Shown here: piece after piece, positions 15,366 through 30,847 of the stretch
How positions within the stretch are numbered: position 1 is the first letter of the stretch
How the letters are laid out: the number at the start of each line of letters is the position of its first letter
Program-made: the position numbers and the translations under genes
Notes under the pieces: generated by a model
What the model was told of the DNA's origin: nothing
Databases searched by the model: none
What the model saw: the letters and a program-made list of their open reading frames with translations, nothing else
Source: Thiomicrospira cyclica
GTDB taxonomy: Bacteria; Pseudomonadota; Gammaproteobacteria; Thiomicrospirales; Thiomicrospiraceae
Reading direction: 5' to 3'
DNA length: 34,438 nucleotides
NCBI GenBank assembly: GCA_020726325.1
Contig: DYST01000008.1
Coordinates: 1-34,438, forward strand

Positions 15366-16586
15366 ATGAGTACCTTGTTAGATGTTTTTGTTGCTCGTCA
15401 ACCTATCTTCAATAAAGATTTAGGTGTGTATGCGTATGAATTGTTGTTCCGTAGTGGTGATCAAGCAAATCATGCGGTAATTTTGGGTGGTGATTCGGCA
15501 ACGGCACAGGTTGTACTTAATGCCTTTATGGAAATTGGCTTAACCAATCTTGTTGGTGAGCATAAAGCATTTTTAAACTTTACCGAAGGCTTTTTATTAC
15601 GCGAAAATATTCCATTATTTCCGCGAGCGCAATTGGTTATTGAAGTTTTGGAAACTGTTAAGCCAACACCTGCAGTCGTTAAAGCTGTGGAGCATTTACG
15701 TGGATTGGGTTATACCATTGCATTAGATGATTTCTTTTACACGGATGAGTACAAGCCGCTGGTTGCGTTAGCTGATATCATTAAAATCGATATCTTGGAT
15801 GTTGGGGCTAAAAATCTGGCGAATCATATTCGTTCGATTCGTGCAACCAATGAGCGTGTACGCCTGCTTGCTGAAAAAGTTGAAACCCGCGAGCAGTTTG
15901 AATATTGCAAGGGTTTGGGCATGGATTATTTCCAAGGTTATTTCTTTGCTAAACCGCAAATTATTAAGGGTCAACGCTTACCTTCTAATAAAATGGCAAT
16001 TTTAAATTTATTAGCGAGTGTTTATGACCCTAATATTGATATGGGCGATTTAGCCGCAATTGTGGGGCGAGATGTTGGTTTGTCACATAAGTTATTAAGC
16101 TTTGTAAAAACCTATCCTGGTAATCAGGATATTCAGATTAATTCAATTAAAGATGCCGTGCTTCGTTTTGGCTTACAAAAACTTCAAAGCTGGGTTAGTG
16201 TGTTGGTGTTATCTGGTATGGATGATAAGCCGAGTGAGCTTTTCAATACTGCCCTGTTGCGGGCAAGATTTATGGAGCTATTGGCAGAAAAAGGTAAGTG
16301 CGCAATGCGTGATACCTTCTTTATGGTTGGTTTATTTTCGTGTTTAGATGCGTTAATGGATACCGAGATGGTAGATGCTTTAGGTGCGATTACCATTTCT
16401 GATGAGGCTAAAGTTGCGTTAACACGCAATGAAGGCGTTATGGGAGAGGCATTAACCTGTGCACTCGCGATTGAGCGTGGTGATACAGCGAAAACCGTTT
16501 TCTTAGATATTAACTCGGGTGATATTTCGTCGATTTACATGCAAGCAATGGTATGGGCAACAGCAACAACAGCAACGATGCGTTAG
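15366..16586 (+). CDS. EAL-HDOD (YuxH-type) signalling protein with degenerate EAL
   Basis: A 406-residue protein, EAL-like at about 5-200 followed by HDOD at about 210-400. It opens with VARQPIFNKDLGVYAYELLFR, the hallmark of the YuxH family. The EAL motif is ELL, and the phosphodiesterase loop DDFGxG is replaced by DDFFYTDEY, so hydrolysis of c-di-GMP is unlikely and a binding or scaffold role is more probable. QGYFFAKP closes the EAL part. In the HDOD half, GLSHKLLSFVK and the helix around DAVLRFGLQKLQSW are typical, with no HD phosphohydrolase pair. AGGAG sits about 10 nt before the ATG. It follows yggX by 21 nt and may share that transcript. Confidence 0.88.
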   Translation: MSTLLDVFVARQPIFNKDLGVYAYELLFRSGDQANHAVILGGDSATAQVVLNAFMEIGLTNLVGEHKAFLNFTEGFLLRENIPLFPRAQLVIEVLETVKPTPAVVKAVEHLRGLGYTIALDDFFYTDEYKPLVALADIIKIDILDVGAKNLANHIRSIRATNERVRLLAEKVETREQFEYCKGLGMDYFQGYFFAKPQIIKGQRLPSNKMAILNLLASVYDPNIDMGDLAAIVGRDVGLSHKLLSFVKTYPGNQDIQINSIKDAVLRFGLQKLQSWVSVLVLSGMDDKPSELFNTALLRARFMELLAEKGKCAMRDTFFMVGLFSCLDALMDTEMVDALGAITISDEAKVALTRNEGVMGEALTCALAIERGDTAKTVFLDINSGDISSIYMQAMVWATATTATMR

Positions 16587-16633: not shown

Positions 16634-16662
16634 TTGCAAAATCAGCAAGTTATCGGTATAAT
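16634..16662 (+). promoter_or_regulatory. Sigma-70 promoter of rpmE2
   Basis: TTGCAA (16634-16639), 17 nt, then a perfect TATAAT (16657-16662). Transcription should start near 16669, with a leader of about 33 nt and AGGA 7 nt before the rpmE2 ATG. Confidence 0.75.
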
Positions 16663-16701: not shown

Positions 16702-16941
16702 ATGAAAGAAGGCATTCACCCAAAATATAACCCAGTTGTATTTCAAGACATTACAACGGGCGAAATGTTCATCACACGCTCTACCATGCGCACAACTCAA
16801 AAAATCGAGTTAGAAGGTAAAGAGTATGGGTTGGTTCGTCTAGAGGTTTCTAGTGCTTCTCATCCTTTCTATACAGGTCAGCAAACGCTGGTCGATACAG
16901 AAGGTCGTATCGAGAAGTTCCGCAATCGCTACAAGCGTTAA
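16702..16941 (+). CDS. rpmE2: 50S ribosomal protein L31, type B (zinc-independent)
   Basis: A 79-residue protein matching type B L31: [16 protein letters not shown], then [22 protein letters not shown] and a basic FRNRYKR tail. It lacks the CxxC zinc-ribbon cysteines of the type A form, so it does not bind zinc. In many bacteria this paralogue is derepressed by Zur during zinc starvation; I see no obvious Zur palindrome, and a strong sigma-70 promoter precedes it. A predicted terminator lies 35 nt after the stop, inside the next gene. Confidence 0.93.
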
Positions 16942-16955
16942 TTGTGGTAGCCTGC

Positions 16956-17783
16956 GTGAACGCAAGGCACTTGTTAAAAAGCCTAGCACTGGTTGCTGGG
17001 CTTTTTGCATTGGGGCAAGCCCATTCCAATGATGATTGTTTGCCTACTAAAATAGATGTCGAAGCAAAAGTTGCCATTGTTTATGATGGTGATACTTTTC
17101 TAATCGGTAATCAGTATGTGCGGTTAACAGGCGTACATGTGCCATCGTCATCGCAGCATTTGGTACCTCCTGAACCCTTAGGTAAGGCAGTTGCCCAAGC
17201 TGTGGGTGAGTTAATTTCGCGTAGTCACAGTAATCTCAAAATTGAATATGATCAGCTTAAAAGTGAAGAGGGTAAATTGTTTGTTCATGCTTATTTAGAG
17301 GATGGACGCAATTTAGCTCAGGTTTTGCTCGAAAATGGGTTCGCTTTGGTTGAGACTAGATTACCGAATTTACGTCATGTTCAGTGTTATCGTGAAGCAG
17401 AAACTAAGGCGCGAGAGTCTAAAAAAGGACTTTGGCAATATGCCGATAAGGGTGTGCCCTTAATTGAATCAAAAGATTTGACGGGTGAACGTGCAGGTTT
17501 TCAGATTGTGCGTGGCAAAGTTGTCTTGGCAAAACAAGGCGAAAACTACTTTATTCTGAATATGGATACCATCGGTTTTCGTATTAGTAAAGAAGCAATG
17601 GCGTTGTTTAATGAGCGTGACCTGTTGATGTTACAAGGAAAAACGCTTGAGGTTAGAGATAATCTAACTTATTACAAGGGTACCATGTTTTCATTGTTGG
17701 AACATCCAGGTCAAATTAATGTGCTTGCTGATAAATTTTATGCGGAGCAAGCAAAGCTTGCCGCAAAACAGCTTAGAAAATAA
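16956..17783 (+). CDS. Exported SNase-like (thermonuclease fold) protein, probably inactive
   Basis: A secreted or periplasmic protein; the signal peptide is [20 protein letters not shown]. The SNase-like fold is shown by [19 protein letters not shown] and LLENGFALV. Relative to staphylococcal nuclease the metal/catalytic positions look changed: the RLLLVDTPE block reads RLTGVHVPS, so Asp40 and Glu43 are absent, and the Arg87 position appears to be Lys. Catalysis is therefore doubtful. The last third (about 165-275) is an extra domain I do not recognise. The ORF track starts at GTG 16944; GTG 16956 gives a cleaner signal peptide, and neither has a good ribosome site. The rpmE2 terminator overlaps this signal sequence. 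Confidence 0.75.
16976..17006 (+). terminator. Intrinsic terminator of rpmE2, inside the SNase-like coding region
   Basis: AAAAAGCCTAGCA pairs with TGCTGGGCTTTTT: a 13-bp stem with one G-T wobble and a 5-nt loop CTGGT. The descending arm ends in TTTTT, so it fits a Rho-independent terminator. It falls on the codons of the downstream signal peptide. Confidence 0.75.
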
Positions 17784-17812: not shown

Positions 17813-18886
17813 ATGTCTGTTGAATTGAAAAATGATCGTTTTTTGCGCGCGTTATTGCGTCAGCCTGTTGATACTACGCCAGTGTGGATGATGCGTCAGG
17901 CGGGGCGTTATTTGCCAGAGTATCGCGCAACGCGGGCGAAAGCGGGCAGTTTTATGGCGTTGTGTACCAATCCTGAGTTGGCATGTGAAGTGACTTTGCA
18001 GCCACTTGAGCGTTACGATTTAGATGCCGCAATTTTGTTTTCGGACATTTTGACGATTCCTGATGCCATGGGCTTGGGCTTGAGTTTTGCACAAGGCGAA
18101 GGTCCGCAGTTTGCACGTCCAATTACCTGTAAAGCGGATGTTAATAAAATCGGGGTTCCAGATCCAGAAGGTGAATTGAAGTATGTGATGGATGCTGTAC
18201 GCACCATTCGTCGTGAATTGAATGGTCGCGTGCCATTAATCGGCTTTTCGGGTAGTCCTTGGACGCTGGCAACTTATATGGTTGAGGGTGGTAGCAGTAA
18301 GACTTTTTCTAAAATCAAGGCGATGATGTATAACGAGCCAGCAACGGTGCATGTATTGTTAGATAAGTTAGCTCAATCTGTAACAAGTTACTTGAATGCA
18401 CAAATTGCTGCGGGTGCGCAGGTCGTACAAATTTTTGATACCTGGGGTGGGGCGTTATCGACACCAGCTTTTCGTGAGTTTTCATTACGCTATATGCAGC
18501 AAATCGTGTCGGGTCTAACGCGTGAAGCCGATGGTCGAGTTGTACCTGTCATTCTATTCACCAAGGGCGGTGGTCAGTGGGTCGAAGAAATTGCAGCTAC
18601 GGGTGCGGATTGTGTCGGGTTAGATTGGACGGTTGAGTTGGGTGATATTCGTGCCCGTGTTAAAGATGGTGTGTCTTTACAGGGGAATATGGATCCTGGT
18701 TTGCTTTATGCGCGTCCTGAAGTGATTGATGCTGAAGTGGCACGCATTTTAGCGAGTTTTGGTCAACATAGCGCGACGAGTGGGCATGTGTTTAACCTTG
18801 GGCATGGTATTCATCCTGAGATCAATCCAGAGCACGTTAAGGCATACATTGATGCAGTGCATAAACATGGTAAGCAGTTTCATTAA
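17813..18886 (+). CDS. hemE: Uroporphyrinogen decarboxylase
   Basis: Converts uroporphyrinogen III to coproporphyrinogen III in heme synthesis, without cofactor. The 357-residue length is standard. Family signatures: the N-terminal [16 protein letters not shown] near 23-38, the substrate-binding [15 protein letters not shown] near 76, [13 protein letters not shown] near 145, and C-terminal [16 protein letters not shown] near 330. AGGAAAG lies before the ATG. The rsuA-like gene begins within the hemE stop (TAATG), so they are translationally coupled. Confidence 0.97.
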
Positions 18887-29869: not shown

Positions 29870-29878
29870 TAGAGAATG

Positions 29879-29903
29879 AAAGGGAGTCGAAAGACTCCTT
29901 TTT
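29879..29903 (+). terminator. Intrinsic terminator of the gltBD operon
   Basis: AAAGGGAGTC, loop GAAA, GACTCCTTTTT: a stem of about 10 bp (one G-T wobble) capped by a GNRA tetraloop, with a TTTTT run. It lies inside the track's 29876 ORF, so the Mrr start must be downstream. Confidence 0.85.
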
Positions 29904-29932
29904 CGTTAGAAATACTTGAAAAGAGATTAATG

Positions 29933-30847
29933 ATGGCGATTCCTGATTTTCAAAGTTGTATGATTCCTATTTTGCGAACTATTGCTGATGGTGCTGAGTA
30001 CAGTATGAAGCAAGTGGCAGATATGTTAGCCATTCAATTTGATTTGTCTGAACAAGAAAAGACACAAATGTTGCCAAGCGGACGACAAGAATTGTTTTAC
30101 AATCGCGTTGCGTGGGCTAAGTTCTATTTAAGTAAAGCGGAACTGATTCTTTCTCCTAAAAGAGGTTCTATTAAGATAAGTGAAGCTGGTATTAAGCTAC
30201 TATCCGAAAAAGTAGACTATATAAACTTAAAGTATCTGAAGAGATTTCCTGCATATGTTACTTTTAAGGAGCTAACTAAGTCTGAATCGGAAAATGATTT
30301 AGGTGTTGACGAACAGGACGGTGCCAGTCAAACTCCAGAAGAGTTGTTAGAATCCGCGCATCAAAAAATTAAGAAGGAGTTAGCGCAGGAGTTACTAGCA
30401 AATATTCTTTCATGCTCGCCAGTATTTTTCGAAAACCTAGTCGTGGAGCTGCTTGTTAAAATGGGTTATGGCGGCTCAAGAAAAGATGCAGGTCAGCGTG
30501 TAGGTCAAACCAGCGATGGCGGTATTGATGGTATTATCAAAGAGGATCGCCTTGGATTAGATACTATTTACATACAAGCGAAACGTTGGCAAGGCGGTGT
30601 TGGTCGTCCAGAAATTCAAAAGTTTGTCGGTGCTTTACAAGGTCAGCGTGCGAAAAAAGGGGTATTTATCACGACTTCTTATTACACTCAAGAAGCCAAA
30701 GAATACGTCAGTTTTGTGGATACAAAAGTTGTTTTGATTGATGGGCAATTACTTGCAGAACTCATGATTGATTTTGATGTTGGCGTATCGCCAGCAGCAA
30801 CTTACGTAGTTAAAAAGATAAACACAGACTATTTTGAAGAGGTGTAA
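29933..30847 (+). CDS. Mrr-type restriction endonuclease
   Basis: A modification-dependent (type IV-like) endonuclease. The N-terminal Mrr winged-helix domain (MAIPDFQS, LLPSGRQ-like segment, NRVAWAKFYLSKAEL near 53) matches the family from its first residue. After a variable linker comes the PD-(D/E)XK domain: FFENLVVELLVKMGYGG near 170, TSDGGIDGII near 200 with the catalytic Asp, and the IYIQAKRW (QxK) motif near 218. The track's start at 29876 runs through a terminator; ATG 29933 has AAGAG 7 nt upstream and matches the family start, giving 304 residues. No dedicated methylase is seen, as expected for Mrr. Confidence 0.9.
   Translation: MAIPDFQSCMIPILRTIADGAEYSMKQVADMLAIQFDLSEQEKTQMLPSGRQELFYNRVAWAKFYLSKAELILSPKRGSIKISEAGIKLLSEKVDYINLKYLKRFPAYVTFKELTKSESENDLGVDEQDGASQTPEELLESAHQKIKKELAQELLANILSCSPVFFENLVVELLVKMGYGGSRKDAGQRVGQTSDGGIDGIIKEDRLGLDTIYIQAKRWQGGVGRPEIQKFVGALQGQRAKKGVFITTSYYTQEAKEYVSFVDTKVVLIDGQLLAELMIDFDVGVSPAATYVVKKINTDYFEEV

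Follow-up and report, generated by a model that had tools for sequence, protein, structure and literature searches.

A predicted rpmE terminator that also reads as the signal-peptide code of the adjoining SNase-like gene in many gammaproteobacterial families

In Escherichia coli, the terminator of the frd operon is also the attenuator of ampC: The terminator of one operon attenuates the next gene, as would happen at the locus described here. In frd/ampC, however, the hairpin is located upstream of the coding sequence. The pyrBI attenuator of E. coli has an intrinsic terminator in a translated open reading frame, and a ribosome can block its hairpin (PMC5021804). The translated frame, pyrL, codes for a leader peptide and not for a structural gene, and coupling is controlled there by pausing. 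The genes arfA of E. coli and brfA of B. subtilis likewise contain a terminator or hairpin in their coding sequence, which gives rise to a non-stop mRNA (PMC8012679), but in these genes the hairpin is placed towards the 3' end of the open reading frame and the short product is active. In the pil1 pilus operon of Streptococcus gallolyticus, translation across the leader destabilises a stem-loop terminator (PMC3894217); this operon differs in having a separate leader peptide with phase-variable repeats. Finally, the W48 construct of Li et al. has a terminator 30 bp past the start of a second open reading frame, after a translated gene (PMC4824070). This layout is similar to the one we describe, but the construct is artificial, and translation lowered its termination by only about 10%.

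The locus formed by rpmE and the SNase gene which follows it is unlike pyrBI: The same hairpin would code for the signal peptide of the exported protein itself and would also terminate the upstream gene. We have found no report of a terminator used as signal-peptide code, or of an overlap between rpmE and a SNase gene, in the openly accessible literature (most subscription journals lie outside it). The main text of a paper on the 3' ends of P. aeruginosa does not mention rpmE, and a search of Rfam with the element gave no match. From the comparison of sequences, we consider it very probable that this is an old element with a dual use, and that the nuclease owes its expression entirely to leakage through the terminator of rpmE.

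All features of the locus are on the forward strand of the window, the whole stretch of 34,438 nt that we have analyzed. A promoter-like site, TTGCAA-17-TATAAT (16634 to 16662), has 10 of the 12 consensus matches; the four congeners share TTGCAAAATCAG and part of the -10 region. It belongs to rpmE2 (16702 to 16941), which codes for ribosomal protein L31 (PF01197, E 2.3e-28). After a gap of 14 nt from the rpmE2 stop, the SNase-like gene has its predicted start at GTG 16956 and extends to 17783; its product matches PF00565 with an E value of 2.2e-11 and 44.6 bits, the cut-off being 21. All four genomes of the genus share this start, and an alternative in-frame GTG at 16944 is missing from two of the four congeners. 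It is preceded by a weak Shine-Dalgarno-like sequence, GGTAG (16946 to 16950), and the alignment has GGAG or GGGG at this position in the congeners. The downstream neighbour is hemE (17813 to 18886; PF01208, E 3.7e-144), which is kept in the family: The order rpmE2-SNase-hemE is found in all 30 family loci first examined. Directly upstream of rpmE2 (15366 to 16586) we find an EAL-HDOD protein, whose match to the EAL profile is confined to the second half of the profile.

The preliminary description had placed a 13-bp stem on codons 7 to 17 of the SNase-like gene, and had proposed that the terminator overlaps a signal peptide. Both claims hold. The hairpin is found at 16976 to 17006, with the codons counted from GTG 16956: The 5' arm is AAAAAGCCTAGCA (16976 to 16988), the loop is CTGGT (16989 to 16993), and the 3' arm, which includes the U-tract, is TGCTGGGCTTTTT (16994 to 17006). 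One of the 13 pairs is U-G, and the five outer pairs are A-U pairs made by the U-tract itself. The hairpin appears in the predicted minimum-energy structure of 16920 to 17030 (z = -3.6; 1 of 200 shuffles is equally stable) and is located where the rpmE2 terminator is expected. Its GC-rich stem is followed immediately by a U-run, as in intrinsic terminators, and it overlaps an open reading frame with a conserved start and predicted translation, as in attenuators. The sites listed by a consensus terminator scan do not include this hairpin, probably because the U-run is inside the stem. We also looked for a conserved antiterminator or pause structure, as an attenuator of the pyrBI or trp kind would have: A small hairpin around GTG 16956 is present in the window; judged by eye, it is not evident in G001 and G002.

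The first 24 codons of the SNase-like gene (16956 to 17027) code for the predicted signal peptide, and ten of its residues are encoded by the hairpin. The signal peptide was judged by its composition and the cleavage site by eye. It shows the features of Sec signal peptides: a basic n-region, a hydrophobic core, and small residues at -3 and -1. The predicted ends in the genus are, for example, AHS, AQA, AFA and ALA. In 29 loci, the net charge of the signal peptide is +1.9, and the segment encoded by the hairpin has a mean hydropathy of 1.72 when read in the real frame; the other two frames give 0.54 and 0.04. A single sequence of 31 nt would have two functions to serve: as RNA, the intrinsic terminator of rpmE, and as codons, the charged end and the hydrophobic core of a signal peptide. 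Its A-rich 5' side would be read as Lys/Arg, and the 3' arm with the U-tract as Ala-Leu-Phe.

The freezing of synonymous sites and the covariation of the stem indicate that the hairpin is not due to chance, and that a constraint beyond the amino acids acts on it. All 7 stem codons with an invariant residue use the same synonymous bases throughout the four genomes of the genus; elsewhere in the gene, this holds for 25 of 123 (Fisher P 3e-5; the product over degeneracy classes is about 6e-7). The frozen codons include two rare ones, CTA (7.6% of Leu codons) and GGG (11.6% of Gly codons). The loop tolerates changes in the four congeners, as well as an in-frame insertion of 3 nt. Protein identity between the congeners and the SNase-like protein of the window is about 57–71%; the named congeners are metagenome-assembled genomes, labelled as Thiotrichales or Gammaproteobacteria. 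In an independent and distant family, f160, sampled with 11 genomes of 50–90% protein identity, freezing affects 7 of the 8 codons of the stem, compared with 2 of 72 in the remainder of the gene (P 9e-8).

Covariation was analyzed in 20 gapless, in-frame homologous hairpins from 12 families. Standard pairs are found in 96% of the pair cells, against 80% in shuffled and 29–68% in slid alignments. Changes on both sides of the stem occupy 28 cells, against 7.3 after shuffling. Covariation scores 0.511, against 0.202 (0 of 500 shuffles as high). The slid control keeps relatedness and the shuffled one does not: Both agree. The peptide encoded by the stem differs between loci (RAL, RVP, RAT, RAS, KSL), so the pairing is under stricter conservation than the amino acids. 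The U-tract begins with three invariant U.

Many families of Gammaproteobacteria have rpmE adjoining a SNase gene, and the terminator is embedded in most of the pairs we have read; MPTAVLLKRALFTSALFLLWISIPAWP, MPRWRWLPRALLVGALFSFGAAHA and MPVTLSGFAQKALLGSAFCFLALAFASAWG are examples. Terminators inside the signal-peptide codons at these loci are found in about 19 families, if a locus counts when a start codon precedes the hairpin and no later start is clearly better. An additional family, f22, is ambiguous: A TTG follows the terminator. A further search found the terminator embedded in all 11 loci of f160 (LKKASLVGAFFV) and in both loci of f188 (LKKRPVYLALFLFL), and separate in f86. The two f188 loci, L128 and L129, have a different peptide, perhaps of separate origin. 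Outside the class, none of the 5 SNase matches fetched has rpmE adjacent upstream.

In the embedded loci, all GC cores of 21 nt are in one reading phase, and shorter or longer cores are in the equivalent phase. The median distance from start to GC core is 25 nt (interquartile range 22–25, mostly 22–28 nt). The median distance from the rpmE stop to the SNase start is 8 nt: Most loci have the start at no more than about 25 nt from the stop, some of them as TAATG. Several loci are less clear. Four of them (L084, L085, L088 and L071) are ambiguous, with TTG starts only or possible later starts, the usual start is absent upstream of the hairpin in L089 and L103, and a later GTG is possible in L101 (f128). 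Six were judged by eye: L001, L002, L070 and L101, which were missed by the hairpin finder, and L079 and L083, in which its calls were spurious.

The situation is different in the other genera of the window's family. Their terminator is intergenic, usually 20–50 nt past the rpmE stop, and the SNase start comes after it. Of 33 separated loci, 16 have a TANAAT-like box shortly upstream of the start, mostly 12–14 nt from the ATG. Some other families also have a separate terminator, so the overlap is not obligatory. In one locus, L018 (G035), the rpmE terminator is separated from the SNase gene by about 0.9 kb with an apparent membrane-protein gene. The SNase tree places the window's genus as the sister group of the remaining genera in its family (99/91); the deep forks are weak. 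Because phase, spacing and core length are shared with other families, we favour the view that the genus has retained an old overlap, which was lost once in the rest of the family. A possible alternative is that the genus gained the overlap anew from a separated state. We have rejected the idea of a recent oddity of this genus: The same element is present in the 19 or so families mentioned above.

The separated terminators of the sister genera, which do not code for protein, suggest where such signal peptides may come from. When they are read in three frames, the charge before the loop is +2.0, against +0.7 at random positions, and the hydropathy after the loop is 0.73, against -0.01. A-tracts would give Lys, and U-tracts would give Phe and Leu; the choice of frame and selection would then raise the hydropathy to the 1.72 of the embedded loci. 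Judging from these compositions, a terminator is a ready-made coding sequence for a signal peptide. Reading Lys/Arg and then Ala-Leu-Phe, terminators suggest a simple route for the origin of export signals.

The preliminary description had also stated that expression of the SNase-like gene would need read-through. Our analysis agrees: Every transcript with the start codon also carries the hairpin and, with the start codon upstream of the hairpin, the gene would be expressed only by read-through. An independent promoter between 16941 and 16976 had been named as evidence to the contrary; at the threshold of our scan, there is no promoter-like site on the forward strand from 16727 to 17008. In any case, with a promoter at 16941 to 16976 the nuclease gene would no longer depend on rpmE2, but its transcripts would still have to pass the hairpin. 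The gene would be transcribed only by those polymerases which read through, probably a small fraction, and the nuclease would be a low-level by-product of rpmE transcription. Termination in vivo, the level of read-through and the export of the protein are inferred, while the overlap, its conservation and the constraint on the hairpin are seen directly in the comparisons.

Translation of the nuclease would proceed by coupled re-initiation or by weak initiation just past the rpmE stop. The anti-Shine-Dalgarno energy is -2.8 at GTG 16956 and about -4.5 at rpmE2, hemE and further genes of the window; embedded starts average -2.4 kcal/mol, against -4.5 for the other genes of the window. Such weak pairing fits both low output and re-initiation. 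In the window, the A-tract lies 34 nt and the GC core 39 nt past the rpmE2 stop, and the hairpin lies 20–25 nt past the GTG. In E. coli, tR2 gave full termination when the distance from stop to hairpin was above 27–30 nt, and a terminator 30 bp past a used start codon lost about 10% of its efficiency (PMC4824070). Because of these measurements, read-through is expected to be mostly constant and low, with a modest increase by translation, and not to behave as a strong switch. Since terminated transcripts would have a start but no stop, a degree of tmRNA rescue is likely.

Part of these data would also be compatible with a passive overlap, in which the terminator serves rpmE alone, the nuclease gene came to overlie it, and leakage has no regulatory meaning. 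Such a state is easy to reach: Terminators read signal-like in any frame, and the sister genera manage without overlap. On the other hand, about 19 families keep one phase and a start upstream of the hairpin, though separation is possible. We see a passive overlap as a real possibility, but we lean away from it.

Control by ribosomes is a rival explanation. In the translation-dependent switch proposed in the preliminary description, which would be of the pyrBI type, the ribosome which ends rpmE would re-initiate at once on the nuclease start, enter the hairpin, block its folding and let the polymerase pass, and the nuclease would report the coupling of ribosome and polymerase. The start near the rpmE stop in most embedded loci and the narrow spacing from start to core point in this direction, and leader translation does block terminators in pyrL (PMC5021804) and pil1 (PMC3894217). 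However, the n-region of a signal peptide needs the same spacing, and Shine-Dalgarno pairing is weak. Furthermore, translation cost the E. coli terminator 30 bp past a start only about 10% of its efficiency, and termination is not disturbed by a ribosome that sits on a stop codon more than 27 nt before the hairpin (PMC4824070). A switch is possible, but seems rather unlikely.

Another form of control would act on non-stop mRNA: Ribosomes would reach the 3' end of terminated transcripts, and tmRNA rescue would destabilise the rpmE mRNA or make the nuclease sensitive to rescue. This follows from the anatomy, a terminated transcript with the nuclease start and without its stop. A matching construct in E. 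coli halved the expression of the upstream gene (PMC4824070), and arfA and brfA employ terminators inside their open reading frames in this way (PMC8012679). But the tag would land on a truncated signal peptide without function, apparently a cost rather than a purpose, and weak start sites may limit rescue: We find this form of control quite improbable. It is very improbable that the hairpin is not a terminator, but codons alone or a hairpin for translation control, since, although its U-run is short (5) and paired inside the stem, its position after the rpmE stop matches the ordinary terminators of sister genera, and pairing is kept while amino acids change, with the first three U invariant.

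Going beyond dual use with leakage, control might extend to the whole class, with read-through at the rpmE terminator and signal peptide set by how near the ribosomes that complete L31 stay to the polymerase, and with terminators as a recurrent raw material for signal peptides. This combined proposal is speculative and we consider it unlikely; if true, export of the nuclease would follow the state of translation in the cell. In itself, the element shows clearly how a single short sequence can be constrained both as an RNA terminator and as a protein code, and this is kept in about 19 families. It also offers a natural test bed for the degree to which a terminator near a gene start is disturbed by translation. 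Annotation rules that allow no terminators within genes will put starts or transcript ends in the wrong place at these loci.

A tie of the overlap to expression of type B L31, as suggested in the preliminary description, is contradicted by the other families. The rpmE2 product is indeed a type B L31, in which the four cysteines are absent (it has no cysteines at all), but L31 has four cysteines in all 26 other embedded loci examined, and rpmE2 is the sole L31 match in the genome of the window. We have therefore rejected this link. The genus of the window has a cysteine-free L31 where other families have a four-cysteine L31, and the SNase neighbour is kept: It looks like a replacement in place.

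The SNase-like protein of the window has lost the catalytic Asp40 and Glu43, with HVPS where SNase has DTPE. The variants in the genus are HVPS, HVPA, HVPI or HVPT, and most other families keep (D/N)(T/A)PE. From these residues, nuclease activity of the window's protein is doubtful: It is SNase-like and may be inactive. In another part of the window (29876 to 30847), the translation of an open reading frame resembles, by eye, a Mrr-type restriction endonuclease.
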